Shown in pieces: positions 12,453-54,138 of a DNA stretch of 64,000 bases; the stretch's first letter is position 1; each line of letters opens with the position of its first letter. Under the pieces are notes generated by a model. It searched no databases. It saw nothing but the letters and a program-made list of their open reading frames with translations, and was not told where the DNA came from. This DNA comes from Limosilactobacillus coleohominis 101-4-CHN (GTDB lineage: Bacteria > Bacillota > Bacilli > Lactobacillales > Lactobacillaceae): the NCBI RefSeq assembly GCF_000161935.1, contig NZ_GG698802.1:139320-203319 (forward strand). The letters run 5' to 3'. The position numbers were made by a program, and so were the translations under genes.

Positions 12453-12890
12453 ATGCGAGTTGTATTACAGCGGGTCAATCATGCCCAAGTAAGTGTTGAT
12501 GGCGAAGTAATCGGAAAAATAGGTAAGGGTTACATGCTGTTAGTCGGTTTTGGTCCTGATGATACCGAAGAAACCCTTGACTACATGGTCCACAAGATTA
12601 CAAACTTGCGGGTTTTTGAAAGTGAACCAGGTAAAATGAATCTAGGACTACGTGATGTCGATGGGGCGATTTTATCAATCTCTCAATTCACGCTGTATGC
12701 GGATGTGAAGCACGGTAATCGTCCGGGATTTTCAAAAGCTGCTAAACCAAGCTTGGCAGAACCGCTCTACGATCAATTTAATCGGAAACTAGCGGCGACC
12801 GGAATTCCTGTTGCAACGGGACAATTTGGCGCAGACATGAAAGTTGATTTAGAAAATGACGGTCCGGTCACAATCTGGTACGAAAAATAA
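12453..12890 (+). CDS. dtd: D-aminoacyl-tRNA deacylase
   Basis: Removes D-amino acids, and also Gly from tRNA-Ala, mischarged on tRNA. 145 residues, the normal length. It has the SQFTLYAD (family SQFTLY) motif and the C-terminal GPVTIW motif that form the active site at the dimer interface. It lies 12 bases after rsh behind a GGAGTG site and is surely in the same operon. Confidence 0.97.
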   Translation: MRVVLQRVNHAQVSVDGEVIGKIGKGYMLLVGFGPDDTEETLDYMVHKITNLRVFESEPGKMNLGLRDVDGAILSISQFTLYADVKHGNRPGFSKAAKPSLAEPLYDQFNRKLAATGIPVATGQFGADMKVDLENDGPVTIWYEK

Positions 12891-12914: not shown

Positions 12915-12943
12915 TTGACATTTAGTAAGTACGCTTTTATAGT
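12915..12943 (+). promoter_or_regulatory. strong sigma-A promoter of the Cys-leader/ABC operon
   Basis: A perfect TTGACA (12915-12920) and TATAGT (12938-12943) are separated by 17 bases. It lies upstream of the leader peptide and terminator. Confidence 0.9.
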
Positions 12944-12976
12944 ATAAGCATACTTTAAGAACGAGGAGGAATTACC

Positions 12977-13060
12977 ATGTTGGCTTTACATCAATTAGTT
13001 TGTTGTACTTGTACTCAAATGAATAGTCGAACTGACATGGTAGCAGTTGGACTCTTTTAG
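12977..13060 (+). CDS. 27-residue leader peptide with Cys-Cys-Thr-Cys
   Basis: A short reading frame behind an ideal AGGAGG (12964-12969) with 7-base spacing to the ATG. It encodes three TGT Cys codons at positions 9, 10 and 12 (VCCTCTQ) and stops at TAG 13058-13060. Its place between a strong promoter and an intrinsic terminator, ahead of an amino-acid ABC transporter, is the classical layout of a transcription-attenuation leader. The inference is that cysteine shortage stalls the ribosome at the TGT cluster. The coding role is inferred from context; the peptide itself probably has no function. Confidence 0.78.
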   Translation: MLALHQLVCCTCTQMNSRTDMVAVGLF

Positions 13061-13091
13061 GGTGCATAAAAGGTACTAAATTAAAGAGTTC
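13025..13091 (+). promoter_or_regulatory. mutually exclusive hairpins around the leader peptide stop
   Basis: Hairpin 1 pairs 13025-13034 with 13044-13053 (9 of 10 pairs, one G-G mismatch). Hairpin 2 pairs 13049-13057 with 13083-13091 (9 pairs, one G-U). They share bases 13049-13053, so only one can form, and a ribosome position on the leader would decide which. CATGGT at 13036-13041 can pair with ACCATG at 13119-13124 in the terminator arm, a candidate weak antiterminator. Confidence 0.55.
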
Positions 13092-13110
13092 TCATTTCCT
13101 AATAAATTTA

Positions 13111-13150
13111 GGTCGTTAACCATGGCAGTGGTTAGCGACCTTTTATTTTG
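13111..13150 (+). terminator. attenuator terminator upstream of the amino-acid ABC operon
   Basis: A 12-bp stem (13111-13122 with 13129-13140, one G-U) with a 6-base loop is followed by TTTTATTTTG. It lies between the leader peptide and the first permease gene, so transcription must read through it to express the transporter. Confidence 0.92.
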
Positions 13151-13172
13151 CGTTCAGAAAGGATGGAGGTTT

Positions 13173-13832
13173 ATGAATTGGGAAGTTATCCAACAAAGTA
13201 TCCCCAGTTTCGTTAAAGGATTCCAACTGACGTTATGGCTTTCCTTCGTTGGCATTGTTGGTTCATTGATTGTTGGGGTCTTGGTAAGTTTAGTTCGGTA
13301 TTTTAAAATACCAATCATCAGTAAAATTTTAGGAGCATATGTAGAAGTTGGTAGAAATACACCATTACTAATTCAGTTGTTCTTTCTTTATTATGGTTTT
13401 CCAGTTCTCGGGATGAAACTATCTGCAGAAGCGAGTGGAATTATTGGCTTAATCTTTCTGGGTGGTGCATACATGGCTGAAGGATTTACGGGTGGTTTTA
13501 ATGGTATTGGTAAATCACAAATTGATGCTGGATTAGCGTTAGGAATGAACCAGTGGGAATTAGCTCGGTATGTAGTTCTTCCCCAGGGGTTGGCGCTAAG
13601 TGTTCCAGCACTATCAGCAAATGTGATCTTCCTAATCAAGGAAACGTCAATCTTTTCTGTTATTGCCATTCCGGAATTAACCAATACAGCGCTGGATTTG
13701 ATTGGAATGTACTATCGATCAAATGAATACTTGTTAGTGTTAGTAATTGCATATGCGATTATTTTAATTCCGTTGATCCTGTTCTTAGACTGGTTAGAAA
13801 GGAGGGTTCGTTATGGCTCATTCGGGAATTAG
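13173..13832 (+). CDS. amino-acid ABC transporter permease (first subunit), probably cystine
   Basis: An inner-membrane permease of the polar-amino-acid type (HisM/TcyB class), 219 residues with about five spans. The EAA loop contacting the ATPase is visible as QIDAGLALGMNQWELARYVVLPQGL. The start is ATG 13173 behind AAAGGATGGAGG. An in-frame ATG at 13122 lies inside the terminator stem and is not credible. Its 3' end overlaps the second permease by 20 bases, which indicates coupling. Cystine as substrate is inferred from the Cys-rich leader and the BspA-like binding protein, not from the permease itself. Confidence 0.9.
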   Translation: MNWEVIQQSIPSFVKGFQLTLWLSFVGIVGSLIVGVLVSLVRYFKIPIISKILGAYVEVGRNTPLLIQLFFLYYGFPVLGMKLSAEASGIIGLIFLGGAYMAEGFTGGFNGIGKSQIDAGLALGMNQWELARYVVLPQGLALSVPALSANVIFLIKETSIFSVIAIPELTNTALDLIGMYYRSNEYLLVLVIAYAIILIPLILFLDWLERRVRYGSFGN

Positions 13833-14490
13833 CGTGCTCCTTGAAGGGAGCAATTTTTCAAGGCTGATGGGTGGCCTTTGGACTTCCGTTTGGATTGCGG
13901 TGGTTTCATTGTTAATTGGATTGGTTCTCGGGACCGTTCTTGGTTTATTACGAACGATGAAAAATCGATTAATTCGTTTCGTATTATGGCTGTATCTAGA
14001 ATTTTTCCGGATTGTACCAACAATTGTCCTTTTATTCTTGGTTTACTATATTTTGCCACGGCAGTTTAAGATTGACTTGCCGGCGACTTGGATGGCGGTA
14101 CTCGCCTTTGCGCTCTGGGTAGCTGCTGAATTTAGTGATATTGTTCGTGGAGCTTTGGAGTCAGTGCCTAAACATCAGCGAGAATCTGGATTAGCACTAG
14201 GCTTATCATCTTGCCAATTATTTCGGTATGTTTTGCTTCCTCAAGCATTTCAGTTAGAACTACCAGTAACAATTAACTTGGCAACTCGGGTAATTAAAAC
14301 CACTTCGTTATTAATGACGATTAGCATTATGGATGTGATCAATGTTGGTCAACAGATTATTGAAGCTAATAATCAGACGCATCCAACAGGAGTGTTCTGG
14401 GTTTATGGTTTGATCTTTATTCTTTACTTTGTAGTTGACTATCCGTTGTCGTTATGGGCAAAGCGACTGACTGCTAAGCAGAATTATTAA
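13813..14490 (+). CDS. amino-acid ABC transporter permease (second subunit), probably cystine
   Basis: The partner permease of 225 residues, same family. The EAA loop is seen as HQRESGLALGLSSCQLFRYVLLPQAF, and there are about five membrane segments. It overlaps the upstream permease gene and ends 17 bases before the ATPase start. Two distinct permeases imply a heterodimeric membrane channel. Confidence 0.9.
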   Translation: MAHSGISVLLEGSNFSRLMGGLWTSVWIAVVSLLIGLVLGTVLGLLRTMKNRLIRFVLWLYLEFFRIVPTIVLLFLVYYILPRQFKIDLPATWMAVLAFALWVAAEFSDIVRGALESVPKHQRESGLALGLSSCQLFRYVLLPQAFQLELPVTINLATRVIKTTSLLMTISIMDVINVGQQIIEANNQTHPTGVFWVYGLIFILYFVVDYPLSLWAKRLTAKQNY

Positions 14491-14507: not shown

Positions 14508-15248
14508 ATGGCAGAAGAAATTTTAAAAGTTGACCATTTAAATAAGTATTACGGTGATTGGCAAGCTCTTCATGATATTAATTTTAGTCTGAATAAGGGT
14601 GAGGTTGTAACCTTATTGGGTCCGTCGGGATCAGGAAAAAGTACGTTAATACGGACTTTAAACGGTTTGGAACCGTTCCGGAGTGGTGAGATTTATTTCC
14701 ACGGCACAAAGGTAGATCTGTCACCGAAAGAATGGCAGAAATTGCGACAAAAGATTGGCATGGTTTTTCAAAGTTACGATCTTTTTCCGAATCTGACAGT
14801 TCTCGAAAATATCTTGTTAGCACCAACTAAGGTTCAAAAACGGCCGCGAGAGGAGGTGAAGAAGGAAGCTCTAGAATTGCTAGAACGGGTTCACTTAACG
14901 GAACAAGCCCATGCTTATCCGCGTGAGTTGTCTGGTGGTCAAAAGCAGCGGATCGCAATTGTTCGTGCGTTAGCGATGCATCCGGAACTAATGCTTTTTG
15001 ATGAAGTAACGGCATCGCTGGATCCAGAGATGGTTCGTGGCGTTCTTGAAATTATTAAAGAGTTAGCTGATCGTGACCACATGACAATGATCATTGTGAC
15101 TCATGAAATGAATTTTGCGGCTAAGATTGCTGATAAAGTCTTGTTTTTAGAAGACGGCCATATTCTTGAAGAAACGGCTGGTCAAGAATTTTTTGATCAT
15201 CCGCAAACCAAGCGGGCTGCTGAATTCTTATCGAGTATGGAATTTTAA
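14508..15248 (+). CDS. amino-acid ABC transporter ATP-binding protein
   Basis: ATPase subunit of 246 residues. Walker A GPSGSGKST is at 38-46, the Q-loop in VFQSYDLFPN, the signature LSGGQKQR near 140, Walker B LMLFDEVT near 160, and the switch His in VTHEM. ATG 14508 is preferred, because the upstream in-frame GTG at 14496 overlaps the AAAGGTGGGTG site. It drives the two permeases encoded immediately upstream. Confidence 0.95.
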   Translation: MAEEILKVDHLNKYYGDWQALHDINFSLNKGEVVTLLGPSGSGKSTLIRTLNGLEPFRSGEIYFHGTKVDLSPKEWQKLRQKIGMVFQSYDLFPNLTVLENILLAPTKVQKRPREEVKKEALELLERVHLTEQAHAYPRELSGGQKQRIAIVRALAMHPELMLFDEVTASLDPEMVRGVLEIIKELADRDHMTMIIVTHEMNFAAKIADKVLFLEDGHILEETAGQEFFDHPQTKRAAEFLSSMEF

Positions 15249-15260
15249 TATAAGGAGATT

Positions 15261-16121
15261 ATGAAAATGAAATTTAATTGGAAAAAGTTGATTGCGGGTG
15301 CATTAGCAACCATTAGTATCGCTGCATTAGCAGCAACTGCGGCAGTCCGGCCAACCACCGTGAATGCAGCTTCTAACCCAAGCTCCGTTAGCGCAATTAA
15401 AAAGCGTGGTGTTTTAAAGGTGGCGGTGTTTGGCGACTTGCCACCATACGGTTGGGTAAATAAGGATGGAAAACGGGTCGGCTATGATGTTGCCTTGGCT
15501 CGACAAATGGCGAAAGATCTTGGCGTAAAGGTTAAGTTTGTGCAAGTGAATGCGAATAACCGGGTGGATACCTTAAATTCGAACAAGGCCGATATTGTTT
15601 TGGCTAACTTTACGGTTACTTCCGAACGTAAGCAAGTGGTCGACTTTGCTAAACCATATATGAAGGTTTCAGTGGGCGTTGTTTCACCAAAGAAGAAGGC
15701 GATTACTAAAGTTAGTCAACTCAAGGGTAAAAAGGTGATTGTCACAAAGGGAACCACTGCTGAAAATTACTTTACTAGCAAGCAAAAAGGGGTTTCCCTT
15801 CTGAAGTTTGATTCTAAGACGCAACAATTTAATGCCCTTAAGAATAACCGTGGGGCTGCGTTAGCTGATGATAATTCCTACCTCTATGCTTGGGTAAAGA
15901 ATAATCCAAAGTATACCGTTGGTATTAAGAGCATTGGACCAAAGCAATACATTGCCCCAGCTGTCAAGAAGGGAAATAAGTCATTATTGAACTGGAGTAA
16001 CCAGGAAATTACCAAGCTGAATAAGCAAGACTTCTTTACTAAGGATTACAATAATGAGCTAAAGCCTTACTTTAGCAAGGATGTTAAGCCATCCGATATT
16101 ATCATTACTTCTAATAAGTAA
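15261..16121 (+). CDS. amino-acid ABC transporter substrate-binding protein, basic, non-lipoprotein (BspA/CyuC-like)
   Basis: Extracellular solute-binding protein, family 3 (SBP_bac_3). A signal peptide ends at VNA-AS near residue 36, with no lipobox and no cysteine anywhere in the protein. The mature part opens SAIKKRGVLKVAVFGDLPPYGWVNKDG, the standard ligand-pocket start, and continues GYDVALARQMAKDL. It is very rich in Lys. Lactobacillus BspA/CyuC cystine-binding proteins are also basic, lipobox-less and held on the envelope by charge, so cystine is the likely ligand. A second in-frame ATG at 15267 has better spacing from AAGGAG and may be the true start. Confidence 0.88.
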   Translation: MKMKFNWKKLIAGALATISIAALAATAAVRPTTVNAASNPSSVSAIKKRGVLKVAVFGDLPPYGWVNKDGKRVGYDVALARQMAKDLGVKVKFVQVNANNRVDTLNSNKADIVLANFTVTSERKQVVDFAKPYMKVSVGVVSPKKKAITKVSQLKGKKVIVTKGTTAENYFTSKQKGVSLLKFDSKTQQFNALKNNRGAALADDNSYLYAWVKNNPKYTVGIKSIGPKQYIAPAVKKGNKSLLNWSNQEITKLNKQDFFTKDYNNELKPYFSKDVKPSDIIITSNK

Positions 16122-18029: not shown

Positions 18030-18235
18030 AATAAAGAATTAATGACCGATGAAAAAAGAGTGATTAATGGATTCGCATTCAGCGAGTGGAGGATAGTGAA
18101 AGCTCCATTACCGAATTATTAAGTGACACTTTTGAGGCCCGGCAATGCCCGTCGTTAATGCGACGTTATCCATGAGTGATACCAAGGTGGTACCGTGCAT
18201 TTGCACCCTTGTTTAGCAGGGGTGCTTTTTTATTT
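18030..18235 (+). promoter_or_regulatory. T-box leader of hisS-aspS with overlapping GAC/CAC specifier
   Basis: A tRNA-sensing riboswitch. Stem I carries the conserved distal module AGCGAGTGGAGGATAGTGAA. The T-box bulge AAGGTGGTACCGTG is at 18184-18197. The intrinsic terminator is 18203-18211 paired with 18217-18225, followed by TTTTTT. The specifier loop reads GACAC at 18125-18129. Placed on the same helix as in the glyQ T-box, GAC (Asp) occupies the specifier slot with a purine after it; the His codon CAC overlaps it two bases later. Uncharged tRNA would stabilise the antiterminator and switch on the two synthetase genes. This leader fills the 337-base gap before hisS together with its promoter. 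Confidence 0.93.
18203..18231 (+). terminator. T-box terminator upstream of hisS
   Basis: Nine-pair stem 18203-18211 with 18217-18225 (one G-U) and a six-T tail. Confidence 0.9.
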
Positions 18236-25839: not shown

Positions 25840-26047
25840 TTAAATGAATTTAACGATGACGGAGAGACTGATAAGTGATGTTTATCCAGCGAGTGAAGAA
25901 TAGTGAAAGCTTCACAAACAACCTTGTTAAGTGGCGCTCTAGCAGTGAATTTAAATTAAGCTGTTCCGTATAAAGTACGGAAAAGCAGGGTGGAACCGCG
26001 ATTTATTTCGTCCCTGTGATGGTGTGGAGCCATTGCAGGGACTTTTT
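25840..26047 (+). promoter_or_regulatory. T-box leader of glyQ-glyS (specifier GGC, Gly)
   Basis: A tRNA-Gly-sensing riboswitch. The Stem I distal module AGCGAGTGAAGAATAGTGAA mirrors the hisS leader. The helix AGAG (25863-25866) with CTCT (25937-25940) frames the specifier GGC at 25933-25935, followed by a purine. The T-box GCAGGGTGGAACCGCG is at 25985-26000. The terminator pairs 26010-26016 with 26036-26042. Confidence 0.96.
26010..26047 (+). terminator. T-box terminator upstream of glyQ
   Basis: GTCCCTG (26010-26016) with CAGGGAC (26036-26042), further inner ATGG/CCAT pairing, and a five-T tail. Confidence 0.9.
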
Positions 26048-34944: not shown

Positions 34945-35190
34945 TCAAATCGAAGAGGAGCAACCAACATTAGTAGCGGTTAGGAGTTTTTACCGGACAG
35001 TGAATAATCGTGAAAGGGGCGGCTGCCGAAGCGGTAAGGATGGTAATAACTTGCTTGGCTGGGGCGTAACTAAAAAAGTTACGGACTGTCGCAAGACAAG
35101 AAGAGCTTGCGGTGCGCTATCGACTATCGGATATCTTATGATTAATCACCATCCCGGTACGTGCGCAGTGTACCGGGATTTTTCTCTTCG
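34945..35190 (+). promoter_or_regulatory. lysine riboswitch (L-box)
   Basis: A metabolite-sensing leader that should end transcription when lysine is high. Conserved core pieces in order are AGAGGAGC at the start, AGTAGCGG, GTGAAAGGGGCGGCTGCCGAAG, GGCTGGGGCGT, GGACTGTC and GGTGCGCTATC, matching the L-box layout of Bacillus lysC. The expression-platform terminator is the stem 35151-35160 with 35170-35179, then TTTTTCTC. It fills most of the 448-base gap between the divergent operons. Confidence 0.93.
35151..35186 (+). terminator. terminator of the lysine riboswitch
   Basis: A perfect 10-bp stem (35151-35160 with 35170-35179), 9-base loop and T-run. Confidence 0.92.
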
Positions 35191-53964: not shown

Positions 53965-54138
53965 GTTTGTCTTCAAGGCAGGGTGCAATTCCCGACCGGC
54001 GGTATAGCCCGCAACCCGTGAAAACGGTGGAATCCAGTGTAATTCTGGGTGCCGACAGTAAAGTCTGGTAGATAGAAGATTCGCCTCGTCATTTTGATGG
54101 GGTAAATGGGGACAAATAATCTTTGTTCCCATTTTTTT
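53965..54138 (+). promoter_or_regulatory. FMN riboswitch (RFN element)
   Basis: It controls the riboflavin transporter gene by binding FMN. The conserved core is seen in order: CTTCAAGGCAGGGTGCAATTC, CCGACCGGCGGTAT, AGCCCGCAACCCG, GGTGGAATCCAGTG, GGGTGCCGACAGT and GTCTGGTAGATAGAAG. The expression platform is a terminator, 54107-54116 with 54123-54132, then seven T residues. Confidence 0.97.
54107..54138 (+). terminator. terminator of the FMN riboswitch
   Basis: 10-bp stem with one G-U (54107-54116 with 54123-54132), 6-base loop, T7 tail. Confidence 0.9.

Follow-up and report, generated by a model that had tools for sequence, protein, structure and literature searches.

How is the amino-acid importer operon of this Limosilactobacillus coleohominis locus controlled, whose first gene is preceded by a promoter, a short reading frame rich in cysteine codons and a terminator-like hairpin? 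The first-pass annotation of the window (the whole stretch of 64,000 nucleotides analysed here) had interpreted the arrangement as cysteine-codon attenuation of an importer operon, and the comparison of related leader sequences supports that interpretation. In our judgement, with a probability of about 0.9, the element works as a ribosome-mediated transcription attenuator governed by the supply of cysteinyl-tRNA. In fact, several features that characterize an attenuator are present here: a leader ORF with a predicted ribosome-binding site, conserved and clustered Cys codons, and an intrinsic terminator before the first gene. The elements of the leader region are the following:

12915 to 12943, forward strand: sigma-70-type promoter, TTGACA-17-TATAGT, 11/12 consensus matches
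12964 to 12969, forward strand: Shine-Dalgarno sequence AGGAGG of the leader, 6/6 matches
12977 to 13060, forward strand: leader ORF MLALHQLVCCTCTQMNSRTDMVAVGLF, 27 codons plus TAG
13001 to 13012, forward strand: leader Cys codons 9, 10 and 12 (TGT TGT ACT TGT), the proposed stall site, marked by Cys enrichment
13049 to 13092, forward strand: alternative hairpin 3' of the RNA core described below; it folds
13110 to 13149, forward strand: intrinsic terminator, 12-bp stem 13110-13121/13130-13141 plus T-rich tail TTTATTTT, based on folding and covariation

The observed parts (promoter, leader, Cys codons and terminator) are real and had been placed within one or two bases by the first-pass annotation. 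The near-consensus promoter, the 27-codon frame with its strong ribosome-binding site and Cys at 9, 10 and 12, and the 12-bp terminator with a T-rich tail were all recovered, and the alternative hairpin 13049-13092 does fold. The terminator is also in its proposed place; the distances, given as 50 and 33 bases, are 49 bases from the leader stop to the stem and 31 bases from the stem to the permease ATG at 13173. Two of the Cys codons lie at 13001-13006 and the third at 13010-13012, and at least three Cys within 26 codons have P = 0.00019 at the window Cys background of 0.43%. The terminator hairpin folds at -21.5 kcal/mol. This kilobase has 2 promoter-like sites against a shuffle mean of 2.6 and 1 terminator-like site against a mean of 0.7; as these numbers are not above shuffles, the case for the element rests on conservation. 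TTGAC was found at most 110 bases upstream in 53/56 leaders examined, and GTAAGT is repeated ten bases past the TTGAC start in 15/56 leader promoters. An inverted repeat, AAGTACGCTT / AAGCATACTT, flanks the -10 region of the window promoter (12927-12936 and 12946-12955); judging from its sequence it is a possible repressor site, such that double control of the operon may exist.

Behind the leader lies the operon itself:

13173 to 13832, forward strand: amino-acid ABC permease 1
13813 to 14490, forward strand: amino-acid ABC permease 2
14508 to 15248, forward strand: amino-acid ABC ATPase
15261 to 16121, forward strand: solute-binding protein, best solved relatives 2yjp and 1xt8

These genes had been read as a cystine importer; the amino-acid importer stands, with cysteine to be set beside cystine as its candidate substrate. 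Compared with solved structures, the binding protein is closest to 2yjp (E 4.5e-77) and 1xt8 (E 4.6e-74), with a third relative far behind (E 5.8e-39). Both are annotated merely as putative amino-acid binding proteins, and we take them to be the cysteine receptors of Neisseria and Campylobacter. Going by these relatives, cysteine appears as likely a substrate as cystine; no substrate-specific NCBIfam model at its curated cut-off was among the matches listed for the four operon proteins.

As a check of its reading, the first-pass annotation had proposed aligning the leader across Limosilactobacillus for conserved Cys codons and covarying stems. Fifty genomes of the genus were searched, and the permease was found at E up to 1e-60 in 24 of them, the same 24 that carry the binding protein; together with locus L169, taken from among the matches listed, they give 25 loci. 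All 25 have a Shine-Dalgarno-preceded ORF with clustered Cys codons whose start is at most 230 bases from the permease. The Cys codons are thus kept throughout while the remainder of the leader is rebuilt, and the motifs themselves vary (CCTC, CCCC, CFACCSAC, CCSCCSSC, MCAMPCCTMMC, ACC-stop). Cys accounts for 97 of the 703 residues in these leaders, 32 times the window background, with Met 2.8-fold and Phe 2.1-fold above background. As controls, the strict leader detector was positive in 9% of dinucleotide shuffles and on 5/181 reverse strands. Four of the Limosilactobacillus leaders (L017, L021, L023 and L024) terminate in Cys-Cys-stop, and by eye the Cys-codon stretch of L017, L021 and L023 looks complementary to the segment preceding the U run, a second layout. 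Met codons adjoin the Cys codons in leaders L027, L028, L029, L063, L065, L067 and L072; perhaps both sulfur amino acids are sensed by such Met-containing leaders.

Leaders of the window type carry a conserved RNA core, and the pairings of the window around it are these:

13010 to 13016, forward strand: 5' strand of helix P1, TGTACTC, which includes the last Cys codon (permutation test)
13028 to 13050, forward strand: conserved RNA core CGAACTGACATGG-NNN-CAGTTGG
within the core, forward strand: hairpin P2, 13030-13034 with 13044-13048, exposing ACATGG in its loop
13031 to 13041, forward strand: 5' strand of the candidate antiterminator, ACTG-A-CATGGT
13060 to 13066, forward strand: 3' strand of helix P1, GGGTGCA, starting at the last base of the stop codon (permutation test)
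13119 to 13129, forward strand: 3' strand of the candidate antiterminator, ACCATG-G-CAGT, in the terminator 5' arm and loop

The best antiterminator seen at first pass was a pairing of six base pairs, CATGGT at 13036-13041 with ACCATG at 13119-13124, which was taken to be weak. The complementarity is there; far from being weak, the candidate is the conserved core, and it is extended by ACTG 13031-13034 with CAGT 13126-13129. Across 11 window-type sequences, 95.9% of the terminator cells are paired against 18-51% when the strands are slid, 8/11 pairs are doubly changed (9/500 shuffles as high) and the covariation score is 0.818 (0/500). In the same 11 sequences the antiterminator core is 92.2% paired against 17-45% slid, and 97.2% of its cells are paired in the four cysteine-operon sequences alone. 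Covariation was sought there and not found, the single double change being matched by 132/500 shuffles, as the two strands are nearly invariant. For P1, with partners picked as best fit in both arms of the test, the own-partner score in 11 non-redundant copies was 152 against a permuted mean of 128, and 10/5000 permutations were as high. In copy L265, ATGTGG takes the place of ACATGG, and by eye pairing with GACCATGG is still possible via G-U.

A different, sister type of leader was aligned from 14 loci (alignment A2: L010-L016, L018-L020, L022, L025, L026 and L169). Its terminator has 6/13 pairs doubly changed (2/500 shuffles as high) with a covariation score reached by 0/500, and a hairpin that contains the Cys codons has 3/9 pairs doubly changed (107/500), again with a score reached by 0/500. 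In most of these leaders a T run follows the latter hairpin while still within the ORF, an arrangement resembling a pause hairpin or early terminator. The sister-type antiterminator, AAATTCAG/TTGTA/CTAG, is 89.8% paired (37/500) against 16.5-50% slid; it has 1 doubly changed pair against a shuffle mean of 1.9 (485/500 as high), and 97/500 shuffles attain its score. That one pair marks a single clade of six related sequences and may be one event; column 138, its member in the terminator, changes along with the other partner, column 155, too, as expected of mutually exclusive helices. With respect to covarying stems, then, the proposed check bore out the terminator and the Cys-codon helices, and the signal of the antiterminator is weak or absent. 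The sister-type RNA model, R2, found 13 strong places, all at known cysteine operons, and two weak ones besides.

From these elements, a course of events can be proposed. RNA polymerase would start a few bases past 12943 and a ribosome would translate the leader. When cysteine is plentiful, the ribosome would pass the Cys codons and move across or occupy 13028-13066 up to the stop, such that the antiterminator strand 13031-13041 is covered, the terminator at 13110-13149 forms and the operon is off. When cysteine is short, the ribosome would stall once a Cys codon (13001-13012) has entered the A site, and, given the size of the ribosome footprint, its downstream edge would lie near 13024. The stalled ribosome would prevent P1 and leave hairpin P2 free with its ACATGG loop, which could pair with the nascent 5' arm of the terminator (13119-13129), so that the terminator would fail and the importer be transcribed. 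The parts of this model that we infer are the stalling, the timing, which way the response goes and whether P1 serves as a protector or as a pause hairpin.

The two states were compared in a fold simulation in which a stalled ribosome hid the RNA as far as 12 bases beyond the last Cys codon and a ribosome at the stop hid it as far as 9 bases beyond the stop, the measure being the fraction of the terminator 5' arm and loop paired upstream. In the window, this fraction was 0.69 with the ribosome stalled at the last Cys and 0.21 at the stop, a difference that is in part a product of the setup, since pairing always falls when more of the spacer is hidden; shuffled spacers gave 0.43, and 10/100 of them reached 0.69. 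Without a ribosome the fraction was 0.45, such that this state is not clearly terminating in the simulation. We simulated 46/51 leaders, leaving out L017, L021, L023 and L024, with their Cys-Cys-stop layout, and L191, whose hairpin was not below the cut. Medians for stall, stop and shuffle were 0.70, 0.17 and 0.44 in 21 Limosilactobacillus leaders, 0.66, 0.23 and 0.40 in 12 of Lactobacillus, 0.57, 0.22 and 0.47 in 5 of Companilactobacillus, and 0.77, 0.35 and 0.58 in 8 clostridial or related ones. Leaders at or under 5 shuffles of 100 numbered 12/21, 4/12, 1/5 and 4/8, respectively, counts that are not independent as many of the sequences are related. The poorest cases were L182, L174, L028 and L008, with 91, 69, 62 and 54 shuffles per 100 as high. 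Lactobacillus leaders stayed outside the antiterminator pair counts, their antiterminator having been misaligned by MAFFT.

Four other explanations have to be weighed against attenuation. The nascent peptide could itself stall the ribosome, upon cysteine or another signal, and the core does encode RTDMVSVG or close variants in 12/13 window-type leaders. However, L245 retains the RNA core and reads it in another frame (SELTWFQLG), L265 has V for M, and the peptide was not found in the sister-type leaders; we hold an arrest peptide to be highly unlikely. The core of L245, kept in a different reading frame, shows that selection acts on the RNA and not on the peptide. The step governed by leader translation might also be something other than intrinsic termination, be it Rho action, RNA decay or permease translation, as could be thought from mycobacterial Cys leaders, which have no obvious terminators (PMC1262725). 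Nevertheless, a hairpin with a T run at -9.0 kcal/mol or below stands behind 51/51 folded leaders (a count without a chance control) and the terminator stems covary where tested, which makes this a very unlikely account.

It would be harder still to believe that the terminator merely ends transcription of the upstream rel/dtd genes and that the leader ORF arose by chance after a promoter of its own. Leader and terminator-like hairpin co-occur at 25/25 Limosilactobacillus loci, TTGAC lies upstream in 24/25, and the same elements are found before other operons, with a chance rate of such leaders of about 9%; on the other side stand the upstream neighbour, a D-aminoacyl-tRNA deacylase gene that ends at 12890, and the site numbers, which alone do not beat shuffles. 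Just as improbable, in our view, is control of the operon by a T-box or a metabolite riboswitch with an accidental ORF. The orthologous place does hold a T-box in some related genera and the source genome has 24 T-box matches, none of them at the cysteine operon. Yet neither RF00230 nor any other Rfam family matched one of 17 leader loci, even at E up to 1, no family was found at gathering scores in the leader part of the window, and the Cys codons are conserved.

BLASTN with the window leader gave matches in genomes that lack this permease, and an RNA model of the window-type 5' domain, R1, for which 11 copies were used, located 16 places in 13/50 Limosilactobacillus genomes. In the family set, R1 was positive in 7/396 genomes, all of them Limosilactobacillus (E up to 1e-4, strict filters). 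Thirteen of the 16 places were read, and each of their leaders contains two or more Cys codons; four of these copies were known via the leader, seven via BLASTN, and two (L265 and L271) are new from R1. What they precede is listed here:

L006-L009: cysteine operon
L244: MetA-like protein and CysK
L245, L271: cystine-like binding protein/permease operons, sharing one genome with L244
L246: MetQ/NlpA lipoprotein
L247: M20 amidohydrolase and MetQ-like protein
L242: close copy of L247 with a different ORF behind
L241: URO-D-like protein and an ABC transporter, its ATPase closest to TcyN
L243: looks like L241 (by eye)
L265: URO-D-like gene alone visible

For L241, L244-L247 and L271 the downstream proteins were scanned, and the best matches of the genes behind the copies are to cysteine, cystine and methionine families. 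CysK and the amidohydrolase passed NCBIfam cut-offs, the remaining proteins being best matches below cut-off; URO-D, HTS (MetA) and Lipoprotein_9 passed those of Pfam. For the URO-D-like gene we infer a role in sulfur metabolism. In L242, other DNA is inserted right behind the attenuator terminator, with an intron reverse transcriptase ORF by eye. Left uncounted were L266 and L267 (about 50 bits) and L268 (28 bits, unmatched by the reading pattern). L266 and L267 have P1-like and core-like DNA in which a Cys-rich leader was not seen, and are perhaps decayed or differently tuned copies.

The distribution of sensors in other genera was followed in 396 Lactobacillaceae genomes, sampled from a larger group; the permease was detected in 89 of them with an E-value of 1e-50 or lower. 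A partial permease match (G416) was left out of the loci, and the resulting state table holds 137 loci, rows under 57.9% identity being left out; genera were assigned through contig matches. A Cys-rich leader is present at 25/25 loci of Limosilactobacillus, 23/45 of Lactobacillus (two of them, L109 and L220, doubtful) and 5/6 of Companilactobacillus. By a motif rule, T-boxes occupy 18/18 loci of Lentilactobacillus, 9/9 of Secundilactobacillus, 6/7 of genus g33 and 3/4 of Lactiplantibacillus. Neither was recorded at 48/137 loci, a label that overcounts, as at least three of them have T-boxes overlooked by the motif rule and detected by Rfam (L054, L057 and L088). In 15 further loci so labelled Rfam detected a single T-box, that of L100, which lies on the far side from the permease start. 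At the Rfam gathering score no T-box was found in 20 loci, though eight of them later matched with permissive filters. All ten loci picked for T-box-like motifs matched (E below 1e-9, permissive filters), L057 at gathering score; since motif-picked loci matched below it, the gathering score of 93 bits sets too high a bar for these loci. A simple pattern, without structural reading, gave the specifier as TGC (Cys) in 17/18 Lentilactobacillus and 8/9 Secundilactobacillus T-boxes, and as ATG (Met) in 3/3 of Lactiplantibacillus. Before the permease of L088, a Cys-rich short ORF (MLNQDCCCQ..., -403 to -337) accompanies the T-box, with a high shuffle rate there (0.3).

On a quick permease tree, from which L109, L145 and L170 are omitted, the leader label requires 7 changes, at least 6 of them by well-supported branches, and Companilactobacillus is placed among T-box rows with moderate branch support. 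From these changes and this placement, leader and T-box seem to have replaced each other more than once in the family. Farther away, 44 distant permease loci (L170-L213) were examined; the strict detector was positive in 18, of which nine with an ATG start and at least three Cys were kept. The other nine positives were set aside, namely seven streptococcal TTG-start ORFs, L203 and L206. The permeases behind the leaders kept are 50-53% identical and belong to Clostridia and other Bacillota, namely Anaerocolumna (L174, L182), Herbinix MAGs (L175, L209), Clostridiales MAGs (L186, L191), Lacrimispora (L195) and other MAGs (L197, L205), and each of the nine leaders has a hairpin and a T run, at -9.0 to -19.5 kcal/mol.

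Classical ribosome-mediated amino-acid attenuators are those of the trp/his type, and Staphylococcus aureus reportedly has a leucine-rich attenuator peptide. With the classical systems the present element shares a leader ORF with regulatory codons, a terminator, an exclusive antiterminator (here a candidate) and genes for the same amino acid; unlike them, it has Cys codons and a different RNA core, stands before an importer and several sulfur operons, and is known from sequence. Mycobacterial polycysteine ORFs, said to be leaderless in the work of Canestrari in 2020, follow a pattern that is not matched here, as the leader has its own AGGAGG (12964-12969), its Cys codons fall within 9-12 of the 27 and a terminator is present. 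That the mechanism works in Firmicutes is shown by Listeria Rli60, a branched-chain amino-acid attenuator (PMC5864092). The uORFC-8-2 leader before cysS of Rhodobacterales has tandem Cys codons (PMC8632094); it also shares Cys codons within a stem and a terminator-like U run, and differs in belonging to Alphaproteobacteria and to an aminoacyl-tRNA synthetase gene. Short Cys-codon ORFs precede cysteine genes in actinobacteria, where the Cys runs lie near the stop and there is no conserved terminator, whereas here a Shine-Dalgarno sequence and a terminator are found (PMC1262725). In Bacillus hisS paralogs, a His leader replaces a T-box (PMC2965389), again a peptide attenuator swapped for a T-box in Firmicutes, with another amino acid, other genes and another lineage. 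The T-boxes of Lentilactobacillus and Secundilactobacillus serve the same operon, with a specifier mostly read as Cys by the simple pattern and an intrinsic terminator expected; they differ in sensing tRNA directly and have no Cys-rich leader by the rule used.

No earlier report of a cysteine attenuator in lactobacilli was among the matches listed, which covered few subscription papers. Peptide attenuators and Cys-codon leaders are already published, as is a case in Firmicutes where a peptide leader took the place of a T-box; the mechanism is known, and the lineage, the RNA core and the use before several operons look new. Lactobacilli are thought to sense amino-acid supply mainly via T-boxes and repressors. 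We put at even odds the wider proposal that a genus-restricted RNA module (Cys codons, P1, P2, and an ACATGG loop invading the terminator, perhaps as a loop-arm pseudoknot), copied before six kinds of sulfur-related operon in Limosilactobacillus, forms a cysteine regulon of peptide attenuators, with some relatives using T-boxes for the same operon and the sensors apparently swapped more than once. The data point to a cysteine regulon that has its own, defined RNA signature. In sister genera, two unrelated RNA devices seem to link one importer operon to charged tRNA-Cys, so that the exchange of sensors can be studied on a single gene.

Elsewhere in the window, two T-box matches lie below the gathering score, at 18040-18213 (54.3 bits) and 25847-26018 (53.2 bits), and a lysine riboswitch and an FMN riboswitch are found at 34945-35128 and 53965-54084, respectively.
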